DNA from: Rhodococcus ruber
GTDB lineage: Bacteria; Actinomycetota; Actinomycetes; Mycobacteriales; Mycobacteriaceae
Reading direction: 5' to 3'
Assembly (NCBI RefSeq): GCF_027270735.1
Contig: NZ_JAPWIJ010000004.1
Coordinates: 434,001 to 498,000 of the forward strand
Length of the DNA stretch: 64,000 nucleotides
The notes under the pieces are model-generated. The model had not been told where the DNA came from, searched no databases, and was given only the letters and a program-made list of their open reading frames with translations. Position 1 is the first letter of the stretch. The number at the start of each line of letters is the position of its first letter. Made by a program: the position numbers and the translations under genes. Below, piece after piece: positions 10,270 to 16,621 of this stretch.

Positions 10270-11439
10270 TCAGCGCTGCGGCGAGGGCGAGGGACGCGAC
10301 TTCCACGTCAACGATCCGCGTTGCCTGCGGACGTGGGATTCCGCGACGAGTCCGGTGAAAGCGAGAATCGACACCGGATGCAGCGCGGCGTCGATCACAT
10401 CGTCCACGCCGAACCGCGGTCCCGATTCGCGTCGACGCGCGGCCATTCGAGACACGATGCCCGCGAGATATCCGGCCAAACCGAGGCGACGCACCGATCC
10501 CGAGGCCGTGAGCGCTGCTATCGGCGGCAGCAGGTAGATCGCGGCGGACGTCAGTGTTGCGGTGGCCGAACCGACCGGGCCGCCGAACTCGTTCCACAGC
10601 CACCGGCTGTACCCGGATCGCAGGTCGGTAGCCGAGTCGTACATCCGGCAGCTGACGAACCCCGCTCCCGACACCACCGCAGTCGACATGCCTCGTCGGC
10701 GGAGGGTGCGTGCCAGATCGAGATCTTCGGTTGCGCTGGCCGCGACGCAGCTGTGGCCCCCGATGGCGCGATAGGCAGCGGCGTCGAATGCCATGAACTG
10801 ACCACAGGCCACCGCCATCGACGGCAGCAGCGTCGAGTTGGCCAACGGCACGGGAAGAGTGGACATCCAGGACCATGCGAGCAGCGGTTGAACGAGTCGC
10901 TCGGCGATACTGCCGACCAGCTGTTCGGGCCACGGGCACAAAAGCGCCGCATCGCGGCGTCGCAGAGCCTCGGCAGCGGCTGCCACTGAGTCGGGCGCGA
11001 GTCGAACGTCGGCATCGACGAACATGATCAGCGACGCCTGTGCGCCGCCTTCGTCGGCCAGTCTTGCCAGCTCGGCGCACGCGGCGGCCTTTCCGGTCCA
11101 GCCGGGCGGGGGAGCGGCATTCGAGGTCACGACGCGAATCCTCGGGTCGCCGGCGGCGGCCGTGCGGGCAGCCGACGCCGTCCCGTCGCTGGAGTCGTCG
11201 TCGAGGACGATGACCTGCAAGTCGGCACACGATCGCTGACGGGTGAGATCGCCGATCAGCAATGGCAGTGTCGCTACCTCGTCGCGGGCGGGAATGCAGA
11301 CGACGATGCGTTCGGTGATGTCACGATCCGGAGTACGCAAGCCGGGCGTGAAGCGCACATTGAGCAGCGACACTGCAGCCGACGCCGTTGCCAGGACGGC
11401 AGCGGTCGCCGTCGTTCGTGCGAGGAGTCGGTCGGTCAC
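10270..11439 (-). CDS. Membrane-anchored family-2 glycosyltransferase, probable carotenoid glycosyltransferase
   Basis: A 389-residue GT-A enzyme. An N-terminal hydrophobic segment (about 8-26) precedes VVCIPARDEVATLP, the nucleotide-sugar pocket VIVLDDDSSDGT, a DxD metal motif in MFVDADVRL, an acidic catalytic TEDLDLARTLRRRG and an RW motif in GYSRWLWNEF; one or two helices follow near the C-terminus. The layout resembles CruG/CrtQ-type carotenoid glycosyltransferases. Because it shares an operon with crtO and cruF, the likely job is to glycosylate the 1'-hydroxyl that CruF would create (inference). Its ATG overlaps the lppM stop (ATGA), so translation is coupled. It is the last gene of the operon. 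A polar-lipid or glycan acceptor cannot be excluded. Confidence 0.82.
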   Translation of the reverse strand: MTDRLLARTTATAAVLATASAAVSLLNVRFTPGLRTPDRDITERIVVCIPARDEVATLPLLIGDLTRQRSCADLQVIVLDDDSSDGTASAARTAAAGDPRIRVVTSNAAPPPGWTGKAAACAELARLADEGGAQASLIMFVDADVRLAPDSVAAAAEALRRRDAALLCPWPEQLVGSIAERLVQPLLAWSWMSTLPVPLANSTLLPSMAVACGQFMAFDAAAYRAIGGHSCVAASATEDLDLARTLRRRGMSTAVVSGAGFVSCRMYDSATDLRSGYSRWLWNEFGGPVGSATATLTSAAIYLLPPIAALTASGSVRRLGLAGYLAGIVSRMAARRRESGPRFGVDDVIDAALHPVSILAFTGLVAESHVRRQRGSLTWKSRPSPSPQR

Positions 11440-12191
11440 ACCGACGTTCTGTCGGTCGGACTGTCCGCCTCGGGTCCTCCCGGCTGCCGATTACGCAGCG
11501 GTGGGTTGCGCGAAACCCAGGCCATGGCTCCGATGATGGCCGCGACGCCGACGGTCACACCACCGACGATGCCCGCCCAGCCGGCGAAGCTCCTGGTGTT
11601 GGGATCGGGGTAGTTGACCTCGGCGCGCACCGACGTCACTTCACCTGCAGGCAACTTCCAGGAGATGGAGTTGTCGCTCTCGCGGGTGCCGTTCGTGGTT
11701 CCGATGCGGGCAGGGAATGCAATGGTGAACTGAACGTCCGAACCCTGGGCCGGAACCGAGGACAAGTCGGCGTTGCCCGCCAAGGTGACGGTGTCACCCG
11801 ATCGCTGAAGCTCCAGCTGGAACGATCCGGCGGCGTTCTGGAAGATGGAGCCGAGCGTTTGCACATCGCCGAACGAGAGATCGTCGAAAATGGCCTGCGA
11901 GCCGACGTATCCGTCCTGGTTGTACGGCTCGACCCGCACCTTGTCCTCGATCGAGGACGGAACCACCAGCTCCGGGCCGGTATCGGAGTCGGAGGTCGGC
12001 ACACTGGCTGCCACGATCTGGCCCGCCACCCGATCGTTCGCCGACACCCCCATCGTGACCTGTACCCGAAGGCACCCGGCCAGCAGCGGCGCGACCAGTA
12101 GCGCCAGTGCGACCACCGAGAGAATCCTGCGGCGGTGGGTTCGGTGAGATGTTCGCGATGTCGACTGCACAGCGACATCGTGCCAGGGCAT
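11436..12191 (-). CDS. lppM: Lipoprotein LppM
   Basis: A 251-residue lipoprotein homologous to Rv2171. An Arg-rich N-region (about 13-23) and a hydrophobic stretch end in the lipobox LLAGC (Cys at about 40). A beta-rich exported domain follows (to about 200), then a C-terminal membrane helix (about 207-229) with a short cytosolic tail, so the protein is anchored at both ends. In M. tuberculosis LppM has been linked to phagocytosis and surface glycolipid recognition; the biochemical role is unresolved. No strong SD precedes the ATG; a GTG seven codons in is an alternative start. It sits between cruF (27 bp gap) and the glycosyltransferase (4 bp overlap), so it is co-transcribed with carotenoid genes. 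Confidence 0.9.
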   Translation of the reverse strand: MPWHDVAVQSTSRTSHRTHRRRILSVVALALLVAPLLAGCLRVQVTMGVSANDRVAGQIVAASVPTSDSDTGPELVVPSSIEDKVRVEPYNQDGYVGSQAIFDDLSFGDVQTLGSIFQNAAGSFQLELQRSGDTVTLAGNADLSSVPAQGSDVQFTIAFPARIGTTNGTRESDNSISWKLPAGEVTSVRAEVNYPDPNTRSFAGWAGIVGGVTVGVAAIIGAMAWVSRNPPLRNRQPGGPEADSPTDRTSV

Positions 12192-12218
12192 CGAGTCGAT
12201 GTCAGTCGGCAGGGGTTG

Positions 12219-13076
12219 TCAGCGAGGCGTGTCGGTACCGAGACCGGAGACTGTTGCGCGCGATCGTGGGCGACGCGTGCGGCCACCGATCCACACCAGC
12301 GGTAGCCCGACCGCGCCCATCACCAGGAACCCGTACACCGCCGAGAATCGAAGTTCCGGACCGTCGAGGAAAACGGCATGCGCGAGTGCCGACCCGAGCC
12401 ACGTCCACAGGAACAGCCCGATCGGTACCGCATCGTCGAACGGTTGCGGCCGGGTGTCGGACGGGCGAGGGGATCCGATGGCACGGTCGAGCGACTCCAC
12501 GACCGCCGCCATCAGCGTGGCCACCACGAGCCAGCCGAGGTAGTTGGTCAGCGGAATGGACGGCACTCCTGGCAGGCCGACGGCTCCGGATGTCCATGTC
12601 CATTGGCCGTCGGTGACCATCTGCGGATCGAGATAGAGGTCCCAGCCGACCATGCCCACCGCTACTGCGGCGATCCGGAGGCCGGCGGCGCGGACCTGTG
12701 TCGTACCGAGGCGGCGAACGACGTAGGTCACCGCGCACCAAATCGGGTAGAAACCGGCCGTCCAGGCCAGCGGGACCACCACGGGTACCTCGAACAGGCT
12801 GGGACCCAAGCGATTCTGTGCGTAGAAGTATTCGCCGAACGGGATGCCGGTGGCGGTTCCCACCAGTTCGGATGCAAACCCGGTGCCTGCCGTGACGAGG
12901 ACCAGAACGGTGGCCCACACCGCTCCTCGGTGCAGCACGGCATGCAGGATCGACGCGAGTGCGAGCAACGCGACCACAGCAACCGTCACTGCGTCTCGAG
13001 TCGACCCCGACACCAATGGGTAGACGATCTGGCAGCCGACAGCCGCAACCGCCACGACGATCGGTGAAACCCTCAT
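12219..13076 (-). CDS. cruF: Carotenoid 1',2'-hydratase, CruF family
   Basis: A 285-residue polytopic protein (DUF422/CruF family) with about seven or eight hydrophobic helices. Landmarks are GIPFGEYFY (about residue 77), WTAGFYPIWC and WDLYLDPQMV with its acidic residues. CruF adds water across the 1',2' double bond of acyclic or monocyclic carotenoid ends, giving a tertiary hydroxyl that can be glycosylated. The ATG at 13076 overlaps the crtO stop (ATGA) and is preceded by GGAGGAGG, so the start is secure. Its partners crtO (4-ketolase) and a GT2 glycosyltransferase suggest a 4-keto-gamma-carotene glycoside type pigment, as reported from rhodococci (inference). The bacterioruberin-type hydratases of archaea are the same family. 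Confidence 0.88.
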   Translation of the reverse strand: MRVSPIVVAVAAVGCQIVYPLVSGSTRDAVTVAVVALLALASILHAVLHRGAVWATVLVLVTAGTGFASELVGTATGIPFGEYFYAQNRLGPSLFEVPVVVPLAWTAGFYPIWCAVTYVVRRLGTTQVRAAGLRIAAVAVGMVGWDLYLDPQMVTDGQWTWTSGAVGLPGVPSIPLTNYLGWLVVATLMAAVVESLDRAIGSPRPSDTRPQPFDDAVPIGLFLWTWLGSALAHAVFLDGPELRFSAVYGFLVMGAVGLPLVWIGGRTRRPRSRATVSGLGTDTPR

Positions 13077-14680
13077 GCTCGCCTCCTCCGGAAGAACTCG
13101 CGACGGCGTCCGGCGCGGGCGTCGGCAATCGCGATTCGCGCAGCAGACCGACCGCTGGCCGCGGTGACCCCGCCACCGGGGTGGGTGGATGCGCCGGTGA
13201 GATACAGGCCGTCCGCCCCCGGGACTCGATGACCGGCCAGTTGCGGGTGCGGCCGCCACATCATCATCTGGTCCAGCGACATGTCCAGGTGCATGATGTT
13301 GCCTCCGATCAGCCCGAGCTCACGCTCGATGTCGGGCGGAGACTGGACGTGCCGATCCAGCACCGCACCGGCGAACCCGGGTGCGTACCTATCCATCTCG
13401 GCCACGATCCGGTCCGCCTCGAACTCGGCCAACGAGCGTTCGCCCGGAACGTCCGAACGCCATCGTCTGCCGTCGGCGAGAGTGTGCGGATGCCACTGAG
13501 ACCACAGCGAGATCTGATGCTGTCCCGGTGGCGCGATGGTGGGGTCGATGGCACTGAACGACATTCCCAGCACGGCCGGAGTCGGTGGCAGATCACCGGC
13601 GAGTGCATGGCCGTGTGCCAGGCGCAGCTGGCTGCGGTCTCGTACCAGCAGCGCAAGGCCGTGGGTGCCGTCCTCGATTCGGTCGGCACTCGGATATACC
13701 GGAAGGGCGTCGGTGGCCAGCCGGACCGCGGTACCGAGTCCCGGTCCTACTCGAATCGTGCTGCGCCACCGTCCGATCTGCGCCGCGTCGTGCCCACCGT
13801 CGGCGAGCAGGTCGAGCGTGGTCAGGATATGACAACCGGCAACGACCACACGGCTGTCGATCTCCCGACCCGACGCGGTCCTTGTGGTCCAGCCGTGCGG
13901 GCGGCGTACGAGCGAGGTCACGGCGTCGCCGAGGGTGAGTTCAACCCCGTCTCTCTGCAACCGGGCGATCATCGCCTCGGTCAGCGCACCACTGCCGCCG
14001 ACGGCGCGGCCGGGCGGAAGTGTGTGCATGAGTGCGGCGAATCCGACCATCGGTGCGGTACCCGGCTCGGACATCGGCGGCCCCGATTGCGCACCGAACC
14101 ACGCCAGTGCGGCCTTGAGGCGTTCGCTCGAGAACATCTCGTCCAACAACGAATCACCGGTGGCGAGGAATTCGCGGGAGAGCATGCTGCCCCCGTCCGG
14201 AGCCCCGAGGCCCCAGAAGGAGCGGAGCAGCTTCGCCCCGGTGGGCGGCCCGCCGAACGCGCGCATGGTTCGTTCACTACGGGGACCCCAGACCGAGACG
14301 AACGCGCGATAGGCGCGGGCGTCCGCGGCCCCGCATGCGGCGGCGATGGAGTCGCAGGTGCGATCGAGACTGCGATGGAAGACGAGGGCGCGCTCGTCGG
14401 TGTCGACGGCCCCCGGTGCGAATGCCCAGGGATCGCAGTCGATGTAGCGCAGGCCGAACTGTGCGAGATCGAGCTCCTCGATGATGCCGGTGTGGCGAAT
14501 CATGATGTGAGCCGACGAACCGCGGTCCACACGATGTCCGGGAAAGCGCTCCACTGTGGATACTGCCCCACCGGCCACGGTGTCGCGTTCGAGAACCTCG
14601 ACAGACCACCCGGCATCGGTCAGGTAGCAGGCGGAGGTCAGGGCATTGTGGCCGGAGCCCACCACCACAGCGTCGATCAC
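13073..14680 (-). CDS. crtO: Carotenoid 4-ketolase, CrtO type (FAD-dependent)
   Basis: A 535-residue flavoprotein related to CrtI but of the CrtO ketolase branch, which introduces a 4-keto group on a beta-ionone ring. The N-terminus has DAVVVGSGHNALTSACYL (about 3-20) and VLERDTVAGGAVST; the C-terminus has GADGLYLTGASTHPGGGV. The order of motifs matches the Rhodococcus erythropolis CrtO as I remember it. The GTG at 14680 is chosen because the longer frame upstream is a shadow of the GNAT gene. TAGCCT seven bases before the GTG could also be an internal promoter giving a leaderless message. The GNAT stop is 5 bp upstream and cruF overlaps by 4 bp. A 3',4'-desaturase (CrtD-like) activity is an alternative. 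Confidence 0.88.
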   Translation of the reverse strand: MIDAVVVGSGHNALTSACYLTDAGWSVEVLERDTVAGGAVSTVERFPGHRVDRGSSAHIMIRHTGIIEELDLAQFGLRYIDCDPWAFAPGAVDTDERALVFHRSLDRTCDSIAAACGAADARAYRAFVSVWGPRSERTMRAFGGPPTGAKLLRSFWGLGAPDGGSMLSREFLATGDSLLDEMFSSERLKAALAWFGAQSGPPMSEPGTAPMVGFAALMHTLPPGRAVGGSGALTEAMIARLQRDGVELTLGDAVTSLVRRPHGWTTRTASGREIDSRVVVAGCHILTTLDLLADGGHDAAQIGRWRSTIRVGPGLGTAVRLATDALPVYPSADRIEDGTHGLALLVRDRSQLRLAHGHALAGDLPPTPAVLGMSFSAIDPTIAPPGQHQISLWSQWHPHTLADGRRWRSDVPGERSLAEFEADRIVAEMDRYAPGFAGAVLDRHVQSPPDIERELGLIGGNIMHLDMSLDQMMMWRPHPQLAGHRVPGADGLYLTGASTHPGGGVTAASGRSAARIAIADARAGRRREFFRRRRA

Positions 14681-14685
14681 ATCTT

Positions 14686-15303
14686 TCAGGCTACTGGCCC
14701 GTCGAGCGGTAACCGGCGACCCAGGACGGCGAAGGGCCGTCGATCGCCCGCGAACTTGAAGTCCCGCAGCACGTCCGCAAAGCCCAGCCGCCGATAGAGC
14801 CGCCAGGCTCGATTGTCCTCTCGCGCCACCTCGGGTGTGGACAACATCACGTTGTCCGCGCTCACACCGTCGAGCAACCGACGGCACAGTTGCAAGCCGA
14901 GGCCATACCCCTGAGCGCTCGGGAGGACGTGGAGCTCGGTCAGCTCGAAGTAGTTCCCCAACGCGTTCTCGACACTGTGCGGAGGGTGCCCCGAGCGGCG
15001 CAATCCGTCGCGAACCTGCTGATGCCACCACTGATGTGGTGCACCGTGGTAGCCGTAGGCAACTGCGACCAGTGAATCCGGCTGGTCAGGATCCGAGTTC
15101 GGGAGCAGCGCTCCGACCGCTCGCCAGCCAGGACGATGCAGATGTTCCCTCCACATCGGCGCCCGGCTCTGCTCGGTTCCGCGTGGGTAACCCATGGCTT
15201 CGACGTAGATCGACAGTGCTTCGAGCAGCCGCAGGCGAAATTCCGGGGGCGTCAGATCGACCAGGTACGGCGTTGTCCGCGCATCGGTGACGACTGTCCT
15301 CAA
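14686..15303 (-). CDS. GNAT-family N-acetyltransferase (Rv2170-like)
   Basis: A 205-residue GNAT protein, the same length as its M. tuberculosis counterpart Rv2170. The acetyl-CoA-binding signature is LHVLPSAQGYGLGLQLCRRLL (about residues 125-145), followed by an ARxxNRAWRLYRRLGF-like C-terminal motif. The start is a TTG at 15303 with GAAGAAAGG just upstream; the ATG at 15447 would extend into the divergent promoter region. It is the first gene of the GNAT-crtO-cruF-lppM-GT2 operon (5 bp before crtO). The substrate is not readable; Rv2170 has been linked to protein lysine acetylation. An SOS-type LexA box overlaps the expected -35 region of its promoter. Confidence 0.85.
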   Translation of the reverse strand: MRTVVTDARTTPYLVDLTPPEFRLRLLEALSIYVEAMGYPRGTEQSRAPMWREHLHRPGWRAVGALLPNSDPDQPDSLVAVAYGYHGAPHQWWHQQVRDGLRRSGHPPHSVENALGNYFELTELHVLPSAQGYGLGLQLCRRLLDGVSADNVMLSTPEVAREDNRAWRLYRRLGFADVLRDFKFAGDRRPFAVLGRRLPLDGPVA

Positions 15304-15333
15304 CCTTTCTTCGGAAACTTGTCGGTGGGCACA

Positions 15334-15339
15334 GCTATA
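15334..15339 (-). promoter_or_regulatory. Predicted -10 of the GNAT-crtO-cruF-lppM-GT2 operon
   Basis: TATAGC on the minus strand, about 31 bases before the TTG start. The matching -35 window (about 15357-15362, AACACC on the minus strand) is poor and lies inside the LexA box at 15350-15365. Confidence 0.4.
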
Positions 15340-15349
15340 TTGAAAAGCG

Positions 15350-15365
15350 TCGAACGGGTGTTCGA
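15350..15365. promoter_or_regulatory. LexA-binding SOS box, perfect palindromic half-sites
   Basis: TCGAACGGGTGTTCGA matches the mycobacterial/actinobacterial LexA consensus TCGAAC-N4-GTTCGA at all 12 fixed positions, and its centre GGGT fits the RNRY preference. It lies between the divergent GNAT/crtO operon (start 15303) and the HEPN gene (start 15501), and would cover the -35 region of the leftward promoter. This predicts DNA-damage induction of one or both transcription units. Confidence 0.65.
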
Positions 15366-15409
15366 TGATCGGGGCCGAGTGCGCCGGTGGCTTCGACTCG
15401 GAACAGGGG

Positions 15410-15431
15410 GTCGAATACTCCGGAGTTCGAC
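15410..15431. repeat. Inverted repeat GTCGAA / TTCGAC in the HEPN promoter region
   Basis: GTCGAA (15410-15415) and TTCGAC (15426-15431) are exact inverted copies around an inner CTCCGGAG palindrome; a further TTCGAC lies at 15393-15398. The spacing is too long for LexA. It ends 3 bp before TAAGGC (15434), a possible -10 for the HEPN gene, so it may be an operator. Confidence 0.35.
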
Positions 15432-15500
15432 TGTAAGGCTTCGTCACGGTTCCGGGCGCGTCAGGTACGCACCGGAGATTCGAACTGGAGGTGTTCGAGT

Positions 15501-15956
15501 ATGACGATCACGAAGGCATTCGATGCCGGCGTGCGGTCGCCGGTGCCGCGTCAGGCCCGGGTTCTGCTCGGTCGGGCCGACGCTCTGCTGTCAGAGTCCA
15601 TCGGTGAGAGCGACGCGGGTGACCGGTTTCTCGGGAGCTACGCCGCGGCGCTCAAAGGAGCGGCGGCAGTACTGGCGTCGCTGCCGAACTCGATCGGTGC
15701 GCGCCCGCGCTCGCGCAACGCGTGGGTGTTGATGGCGAAGGCGGCACCCGAACTCGCCGTCTGGTCGGACTACTTCGCATCTTTCTCGGCCACTCGCGCC
15801 GCGGTCGAAGCGGGCGCGTCGAGCACGGTGGCCGATGTCGATGCCGACGATTTCTATCGCCACGTGAGTCGTTTCTTGAACTCGGTCGACGATCGACTCG
15901 GCGGTCAGTCGCGGTTCGCCTCCGTCGATCCGATGGCCACACCATTGTCGGCATAG
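15501..15956 (+). CDS. SAV_6107-family HEPN-domain protein
   Basis: A 151-residue, mainly helical protein of the SAV_6107-like HEPN group common in actinobacteria. The characteristic block is RPRSRNAWVLMAKAAPEL (about 65-82), followed by a long helix WSDYFASFSATRAAVEAG. I do not see the Rx4-6H ribonuclease motif, so an RNase function is not claimed. The ATG at 15501 has GGAGG ten bases upstream; that SD lies in the loop of a small inverted repeat (15480-15498). The gene is divergent from the GNAT/crtO operon and shares its SOS box, so it may be damage-regulated. The gene is usually found near mraZ and the DUF3040 gene in relatives. Function unknown. Confidence 0.82.
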   Translation: MTITKAFDAGVRSPVPRQARVLLGRADALLSESIGESDAGDRFLGSYAAALKGAAAVLASLPNSIGARPRSRNAWVLMAKAAPELAVWSDYFASFSATRAAVEAGASSTVADVDADDFYRHVSRFLNSVDDRLGGQSRFASVDPMATPLSA

Positions 15957-16183: not shown

Positions 16184-16621
16184 GTGCCACTCTCCGAGCA
16201 CGAGCAGCGCATGCTCGATCAGATCGAGAGCGCTCTCTACGCCGAGGATCCCAAGTTCGCGTCTCATGTGAGAGGCGGTCGCGTTCGCGCGGCGTCGAGC
16301 AGGAGGCGCTTTCAGGCTGCCGCGCTGTTCGTCGTGGGACTCGTGTTGCTCGTCGCCGGTGTTGCTTTGTCGACGAACAGCTTGGCTTTTCTCGTCGTCA
16401 GTCTCATCGGCTTTTTGTTCATGTTCGGTGCCGGGGCACTGTTCTTGTTCGGCGGCTCCAAGAAGGGAGCCGCAGCGACACCGGACGAAGGTGGCACAAC
16501 CAACAGTGCTGCCGAAGCCTCGGGTCGTGGTGCCGGACAGAAATCGAAGGGTGGCCGCAAAGGCGGTAGCTTCACCTCTCGCATGGAAGATCGGTTCCGT
16601 AAGAGGTTCGAGCAGGACTGA
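16184..16621 (+). CDS. DUF3040 membrane protein (Rv2169c-like)
   Basis: A 145-residue integral membrane protein. The N-terminal signature PLSEHEQRMLDQIESALYAEDPKFA (start of the protein; conserved LSEHEQ, ALxxEDP) defines DUF3040. Two helices (about 43-62 and 66-87) are followed by a Gly/Lys/Ser-rich basic tail ending RFRKRFEQD. The GTG start is preceded by GGGGGAGG. It corresponds to Rv2169c, which sits just upstream of mraZ in M. tuberculosis, and keeps that place here. A strong terminator 65 bp downstream isolates it from the division cluster. Function unknown; a role at the cell envelope is only suggested by topology and neighbours. Confidence 0.88.
   Translation: MPLSEHEQRMLDQIESALYAEDPKFASHVRGGRVRAASSRRRFQAAALFVVGLVLLVAGVALSTNSLAFLVVSLIGFLFMFGAGALFLFGGSKKGAAATPDEGGTTNSAAEASGRGAGQKSKGGRKGGSFTSRMEDRFRKRFEQD

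Follow-up and report, generated by a model that had tools for sequence, protein, structure and literature searches.

A perfect LexA box in Rhodococcus ruber that probably serves a HEPN_SAV_6107 gene with a PafBC-type promoter

Results

The LexA box at 15350-15365 is very likely the operator of the rightward HEPN_SAV_6107 gene, where LexA would repress, and PafBC would activate, a PafBC-type promoter. The original prediction, made from the window (the whole stretch of R. ruber DNA that was analysed, 64,000 nucleotides), had placed a perfect LexA box between a HEPN gene and a leftward carotenoid-modification operon and had regarded either as possibly damage-inducible; it missed the damage promoter at 15319-15341. 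The features concerned are the following.

15319-15341, plus strand: RecA-NDp/PafBC-type promoter, TTGTCGGTG-GGCACAGC-TATATT, a perfect match to TTGTCRGTG-N8-TANNNT that reads toward the HEPN gene.
15350-15365, no strand assigned: LexA (SOS) box, TCGAACGGGTGTTCGA, a perfect match to TCGAAC-N4-GTTCGA that starts 8 bases past the end of the -10 element (15341), at the expected transcription start.
15501-15956, plus strand: HEPN_SAV_6107 gene, 151 amino acids (PF18726, E 5e-28), the most likely target of the box.
16184-16621, plus strand: DUF3040 gene (PF11239), the next gene downstream of the HEPN gene.
14686-15312, minus strand: divergent GNAT gene identified by Pfam GNAT models, exact start uncertain.
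10270-14683, minus strand: crtO-like, cruF-like, lppM and GT2 genes of the leftward cluster, identified by Pfam and judged not to be the target of the box.

The LexA box in the window and in the genome

The operator of the actinobacterial LexA (SOS) regulon, TCGAAC-N4-GTTCGA, is found at the promoter, and 15350-15365 is its sole perfect match in the window. Near matches are common, since 14 were counted within two mismatches compared to a shuffle mean of 5.65, whereas the perfect match is not. Genome-wide (5,855,909 bases or 5.86 Mb, 61 contigs), five perfect sites were found including this one, compared to none for the reversed pattern, which confirms the perfect box that had been predicted; when one mismatch was allowed, the counts were 98 and 11. 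A genome-wide ranking of the site had also been proposed. The LexA box upstream of dnaE2 in this genome has one mismatch, and the one upstream of recA has two (together with a PafBC-type motif with one mismatch), so the HEPN box outranks both by consensus.

A chance match would be in keeping with how common TCGA is in this genome and with the 98 sites found at one mismatch or less. However, the small number of perfect sites, the presence of a perfect box in 37/37 congeners, and its near-fixed distance to a second damage motif in 32 of them led us to reject chance as an extremely improbable explanation.

The PafBC-type promoter

The RecA-independent damage promoter is given in PMC5656591 with the consensus tTGTCRgtg-8nt-TannnT, and PMC11804915 describes a housekeeping polymerase that is reprogrammed by PafBC. 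The perfect match at 15319-15341 is directed at the HEPN gene, as for a member of the PafBC (RecA-NDp) regulon, and perfect copies of TTGTCRGTG-N8-TANNNT number 13 in the genome, compared to none for the reversed pattern. Because the -10 element ends at 15341, HEPN transcription would be expected to start at about 15348-15352, where the LexA box begins, which is the position of a repressor. For the regulator, a PafC-type gene was detected in this genome (HTH_PafC, PF19187, E 3.2e-41). The presence of PafC was tried as a predictor of the motif and rejected: PafC was found in 56/56 genomes, including some in which the HEPN promoter is without the motif.

Three of the other four perfect LexA sites (L014, L016 and L018, on contigs C11 and C60 of this genome) lie directly upstream of DUF222/HNH genes, and the remaining one (L015) lies inside a called ORF. 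Six of the other perfect PafBC-type motifs were examined by Pfam: those of L003, L005 and L007 lie upstream or at the 5' end of further DUF222/HNH-type genes (DUF222 genes in the case of L003 and L005), those of L004 and L013 are placed likewise at a uvrB-like and an sbcD-like gene, respectively, and that of L010 lies inside a FakA-like ORF. The perfect sites of both kinds examined elsewhere in the genome are therefore mostly at DUF222/HNH, uvrB-like and sbcD-like genes, and the pattern suggests that a multi-copy DUF222/HNH family may be under damage control. At L007 (1501-1541, contig C11), a 1-mismatch LexA box begins 25 bases after the start of the PafBC-type motif; the gene there scores above the cut-off for HNH and just below it for DUF222, and this dual arrangement resembles that of the HEPN gene.

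Conservation of the box and the promoter

Conservation of the box across Rhodococcus, a further check that had been suggested, was borne out. The HEPN protein was found in 37/37 genomes of the genus, and in all 37 a perfect LexA box and a divergent GNAT gene lie upstream of the HEPN gene and a DUF3040 gene directly follows it. The PafBC motif (at most one mismatch) is present in 32/37; it starts 30 bases before the box in 28 of these loci and 31 bases before it in 4. The distance from box to gene, by contrast, varies. The other five loci (L061-L065) keep the perfect LexA box and are missing the PafBC motif.

Wider counts covered the 1 kb before the HEPN domain, which was placed with a model from alignment A1, and allowed at most one mismatch; locus L080 has just 221 bases of upstream sequence. 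The rest of the family was sampled with 70 loci (30 best matches and 40 chosen to spread over genera, with the Corynebacterium-like genus left out), and the LexA box was found in 54/70, the PafBC motif in 56/70, and either one in 70/70. Among 50 loci from other families (30 best matches and 20 chosen), the box was found in 48/50 and the PafBC motif in 11/50, and one locus (L213) had neither. The named actinobacterial loci, which are the best 80 of 310 confirmed relatives from one peptide pattern and not a random sample, have a LexA-type site in 62/80, a PafBC motif in 32/80, and either one in 80/80; in the 1-kb control windows of these loci the corresponding rates were 7/826 for LexA-type and 0/826 for PafBC-type sites. 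The PafBC-type motif stands alone in the named Nocardia (14) and Streptomyces (4) loci (18/80), so LexA control of HEPN is not universal.

In the Corynebacterium-like loci (L296-L325, the best 30 of 60 matching genomes), the LexA box was found in 11/30 with at most one mismatch and in 20/30 within two mismatches, leaving 10/30 with no box at two mismatches; neither motif was found in 19/30 at one mismatch. With the HEPN box degraded or undetected in many of these loci, control of the gene may have changed there.

The target of the box

At the Pfam level, the leftward gene identities that had been predicted hold (GNAT, flavin amine oxidoreductase-like, Caroten_synth, LppM and GT2). LexA at the box could also, or mainly, repress this GNAT-crtO-cruF-lppM-GT2 cluster and thereby make carotenoid or envelope modification damage-inducible. 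The box does lie in the shared upstream region near the GNAT start, the GNAT gene is divergent from HEPN throughout the genus, and crtO- or cruF-like genes occur further upstream in several families. Most Geodermatophilaceae loci have GNAT-like and crtO/cruF-like genes some kilobases further upstream, so the wider neighbourhood is partly shared. However, the PafBC-type promoter points to HEPN, and a simple sigma-70-type scan of 15230-15530, of a kind that may miss promoters in GC-rich genomes, found one weak site, on the plus strand, and no leftward promoter.

The box also follows HEPN and not GNAT. Genus g2 of the window's family, probably Mycobacterium, is absent among the listed genomes with a HEPN match; G403 and G509, of a different genus, likewise have no HEPN match. 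The GNAT gene is present in 60/60 g2 genomes. The g2 loci examined have GNAT and DUF3040 without HEPN in 30/30, and in none of the 30 does the 1 kb upstream of GNAT contain a LexA box with at most one mismatch. At one of them (L146), a PafBC-type motif with one mismatch lies between GNAT and DUF3040. Conversely, 57/80 named loci have a LexA-type site upstream of HEPN but no match to a divergent GNAT gene within 1 kb, and 41 of these 57 also have no crtO/cruF-like match in the flank examined. The leftward target was set aside as very unlikely because of the direction of the promoter, the absence of the box where GNAT stays without HEPN, and its retention where GNAT is missing. Damage-inducible carotenoid modification, as originally suggested, is thus unsupported. 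For the other suggestion, a damage-inducible HEPN gene, promoter architecture and sequence conservation give strong support.

Genes in the neighbourhood of HEPN

In other Actinomycetes, the HEPN_SAV_6107 gene lies behind a LexA box in the company of translesion-synthesis genes, with the polymerase genes detected by profiles. The order LexA box, DUF6504, HEPN, DnaE2, seen in Geodermatophilaceae and related loci, was found in 22/80 named and 31/50 other-family loci, and HEPN followed by ImuA' was found in 3/80 and 4/50, respectively. HEPN is followed by ImuA', ImuB and DnaE2 at L262, L282 and L291, which are two Micromonosporaceae loci and one from a Stackebrandtia MAG, and in the Nocardioides loci L242 and L250 the order is HEPN, methyltransferase, DinB, DUF3040. 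At L231, L254, L273 and L290, HEPN, DnaE2, DinB and DUF3040 occur in a single row, and these loci therefore link the DUF3040-type and polymerase-type arrangements. Representative identities were assigned by Pfam and NCBIfam for DUF6504 (PF20114, L073), DnaE-type polymerases (L218, L262), an IMS-domain protein (L262), DinB (L242) and ImuA' (NF058630, L203). Of the named loci, some of which have short flanks, 30/80 have a translesion-synthesis gene within 7 kb. In many DnaE2 clusters (L066, L073, L218 and similar loci), DUF6504 (PF20114) separates HEPN from the LexA box.

The ImuA'-ImuB-DnaE2 cassette shares a cluster with HEPN in these other families and does not do so in the R. ruber genome, where contig C1 carries dnaE2 and contig C43 carries HEPN; no match to DUF6504, ImuA' or ImuB was found within 6.1 kb around dnaE2. 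This separation, together with the existence of one genus without HEPN, means that HEPN is not an obligate part of the mutasome.

The neighbouring genes also bear on a possible role of the HEPN protein in cell division or at the envelope, where it would serve as a damage checkpoint tied to the nearby mraZ/mraW division cluster. The order HEPN-DUF3040-mraZ recurs in the window's family, Nocardioides and Streptomyces loci also have DUF3040 after HEPN, and SOS division inhibitors are known in the phylum, with divS reported in the C. glutamicum LexA regulon (PMC5055667). In contrast, the Geodermatophilaceae loci and L262, L282 and L291 have HEPN with DnaE2 or ImuA'-ImuB-DnaE2, and DUF3040 and mraZ were undetected within 7.5 kb there. 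A division checkpoint is accordingly a doubtful reading of the locus.

A literature search, mostly of non-subscription papers, found no mention of DUF6504, no paper on HEPN together with dnaE2, and, by title, nothing on HEPN_SAV_6107 among papers on HEPN, LexA and the SOS response. The main texts of three papers were also searched: that of PMC9380542, on LexA in S. venezuelae, has no mention of HEPN or SAV_6107, that of PMC5656591 no mention of HEPN or MSMEG_42 numbers, and that of PMC8151990 no mention of Rv2170, Rv2169c, lppM or HEPN.

The HEPN protein and its leader

The protein belongs to HEPN_SAV_6107 (PF18726), with a score of 98 bits compared to the curated cut-off of 27.2. The AlphaFold2 model is a helical bundle (mean pLDDT 84.8, pTM 0.77), and the top three Foldseek matches are the HEPN structures 1wol, 3o10 and 2hsb, with TM by query of 0.56-0.59 and weak E values of about 0.4; no Foldseek hit fell below E 0.001.

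A damage-induced RNase toxin that slows growth would agree with the statement in PMC3710099 that most HEPN superfamily domains possess RNase activity, and 14/17 aligned sequences outside the window's family begin helix 2 with Arg or Lys-x4-His. Within the window's family, however, His at this place, the only frequent Rx4H place, was found in 0/19 aligned sequences, which have Tyr instead. No Rx4-6H, the conserved motif of catalytic HEPN RNases, is invariant across the 36 aligned sequences, and the PMC3710099 entry for HEPN-M (SAV_6107) is 'No' where the entries of other families give the extent of motif conservation. The missing motif and this entry make an RNase role of the window protein unlikely, and the toxin explanation with it.

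One further feature was found in the HEPN leader.

15480-15498, plus strand: inverted repeat TCGAAC-TGGAGGT-GTTCGA, just 5' of the HEPN start codon and around the likely ribosome-binding site.

With a spacer of 7, this repeat is not a LexA box. It could fold into a hairpin whose loop holds the likely ribosome-binding site, and it is paired in the predicted leader fold. The repeat is present in all 14 close relatives displayed in the leader alignment. The predicted fold of the leader RNA is no more stable than shuffles (z -1.04), and an Rfam scan of the leader gave a single sub-threshold match (16.3 bits, cut-off 45). A leader peptide, which would start at the ATG overlapping the end of the box, was rejected, as inspection by eye showed that 7/14 close relatives lack this ATG. 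The leader alignment included 34 of the 37 genus loci (a selection rule excluded L049, L056 and L058) and was anchored on the perfect boxes, so that the invariance of the box there arises by construction and is not evidence. Past the box, many columns are at 40-60% identity. Outside both regulator motifs, at 15426-15458, 15/33 columns are at least 90% identical across the 34 loci.

Discussion

The arrangement of the two motifs suggests how the HEPN gene may be controlled. Transcription would start from the PafBC-type promoter at 15319-15341, and LexA on 15350-15365 would occupy the expected start and block it. Upon DNA damage, LexA would be removed in a RecA-dependent manner and PafBC would activate the promoter in a RecA-independent manner. 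We infer from this combination that expression would need release from LexA and would be helped by PafBC. The product would be a HEPN-fold protein, which in the window's family lacks the usual HEPN RNase motif.

This type of control resembles that of mycobacterial recA, for which PMC5656591 describes promoters P1 (PafBC) and P2 (LexA), so that both regulators act on one gene; as noted, recA of the R. ruber genome also has both motifs upstream. The difference is that recA has two promoters, whereas the HEPN gene has one PafBC-type promoter with a LexA box at its expected start.

A probable counterpart of the HEPN gene has been reported in C. glutamicum, where PMC5055667 gives cg2381 as a member of the LexA regulon that rises upon ciprofloxacin treatment with an M value of 3.86, the same as recA, and labels it merely as a conserved hypothetical protein. 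C. glutamicum carries PF18726, and among the best 30 loci from 60 matching Corynebacterium-like genomes the order GNAT-HEPN-DUF3040 was found in 30/30, with mraZ within the examined flank in 23/30; in C. glutamicum, mraZ is cg2378, three locus numbers from cg2381 (PMC5055667). Given the presence of the family and this synteny, cg2381 is very probably the HEPN_SAV_6107 orthologue, and its behaviour lends indirect support to the predicted LexA binding and RecA-dependent induction of the HEPN gene. In contrast to the HEPN gene of the window, a PafBC-type motif with at most one mismatch was found in 0/30 Corynebacterium-like loci.

The third system for comparison is the ImuA'-ImuB-DnaE2 SOS mutasome. 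HEPN is not among the components that PMC10421592 and PMC11791113 name in the parts consulted, and in R. ruber it is on a different contig from dnaE2; the likeness lies in other Actinomycetes, where the same gene is found behind a LexA box with DnaE2 or ImuA'-ImuB-DnaE2, or beside DinB. Based on this gene company and the shared control, the HEPN protein could, tentatively, have an accessory role in translesion DNA synthesis or damage tolerance. In the simplest history, the ancestor would have had a row of the HEPN-DnaE2-DinB-DUF3040 type. In the window's lineage the polymerase genes would then have been lost from this row or relocated, and HEPN would have stayed beside DUF3040-mraZ; g2 (probably Mycobacterium) may have lost HEPN. 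We put forward, with similar caution, that the translesion-synthesis machinery of Actinobacteria may have an accessory subunit or regulator so far overlooked, HEPN_SAV_6107 together with DUF6504. It would ancestrally have been encoded behind one LexA box with DnaE2, and dual LexA and PafBC control may have been kept after the separation, as in the R. ruber genome.

Our analysis replaces an unsupported link between the SOS response and carotenoids with a testable one to an uncharacterised small protein family. Damage-control sites lie upstream of HEPN_SAV_6107 in most of the Actinomycetes examined, and the gene is often beside error-prone polymerases. If the HEPN protein is part of the mutasome, the mycobacterial model would lack one factor, which could explain why lineages differ in damage-induced mutation; if g2, probably Mycobacterium, has lost it, then the mutasome studied there may lack a component. 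A single promoter that joins LexA repression with PafBC activation would also be a clean place to study how damage responses are combined.
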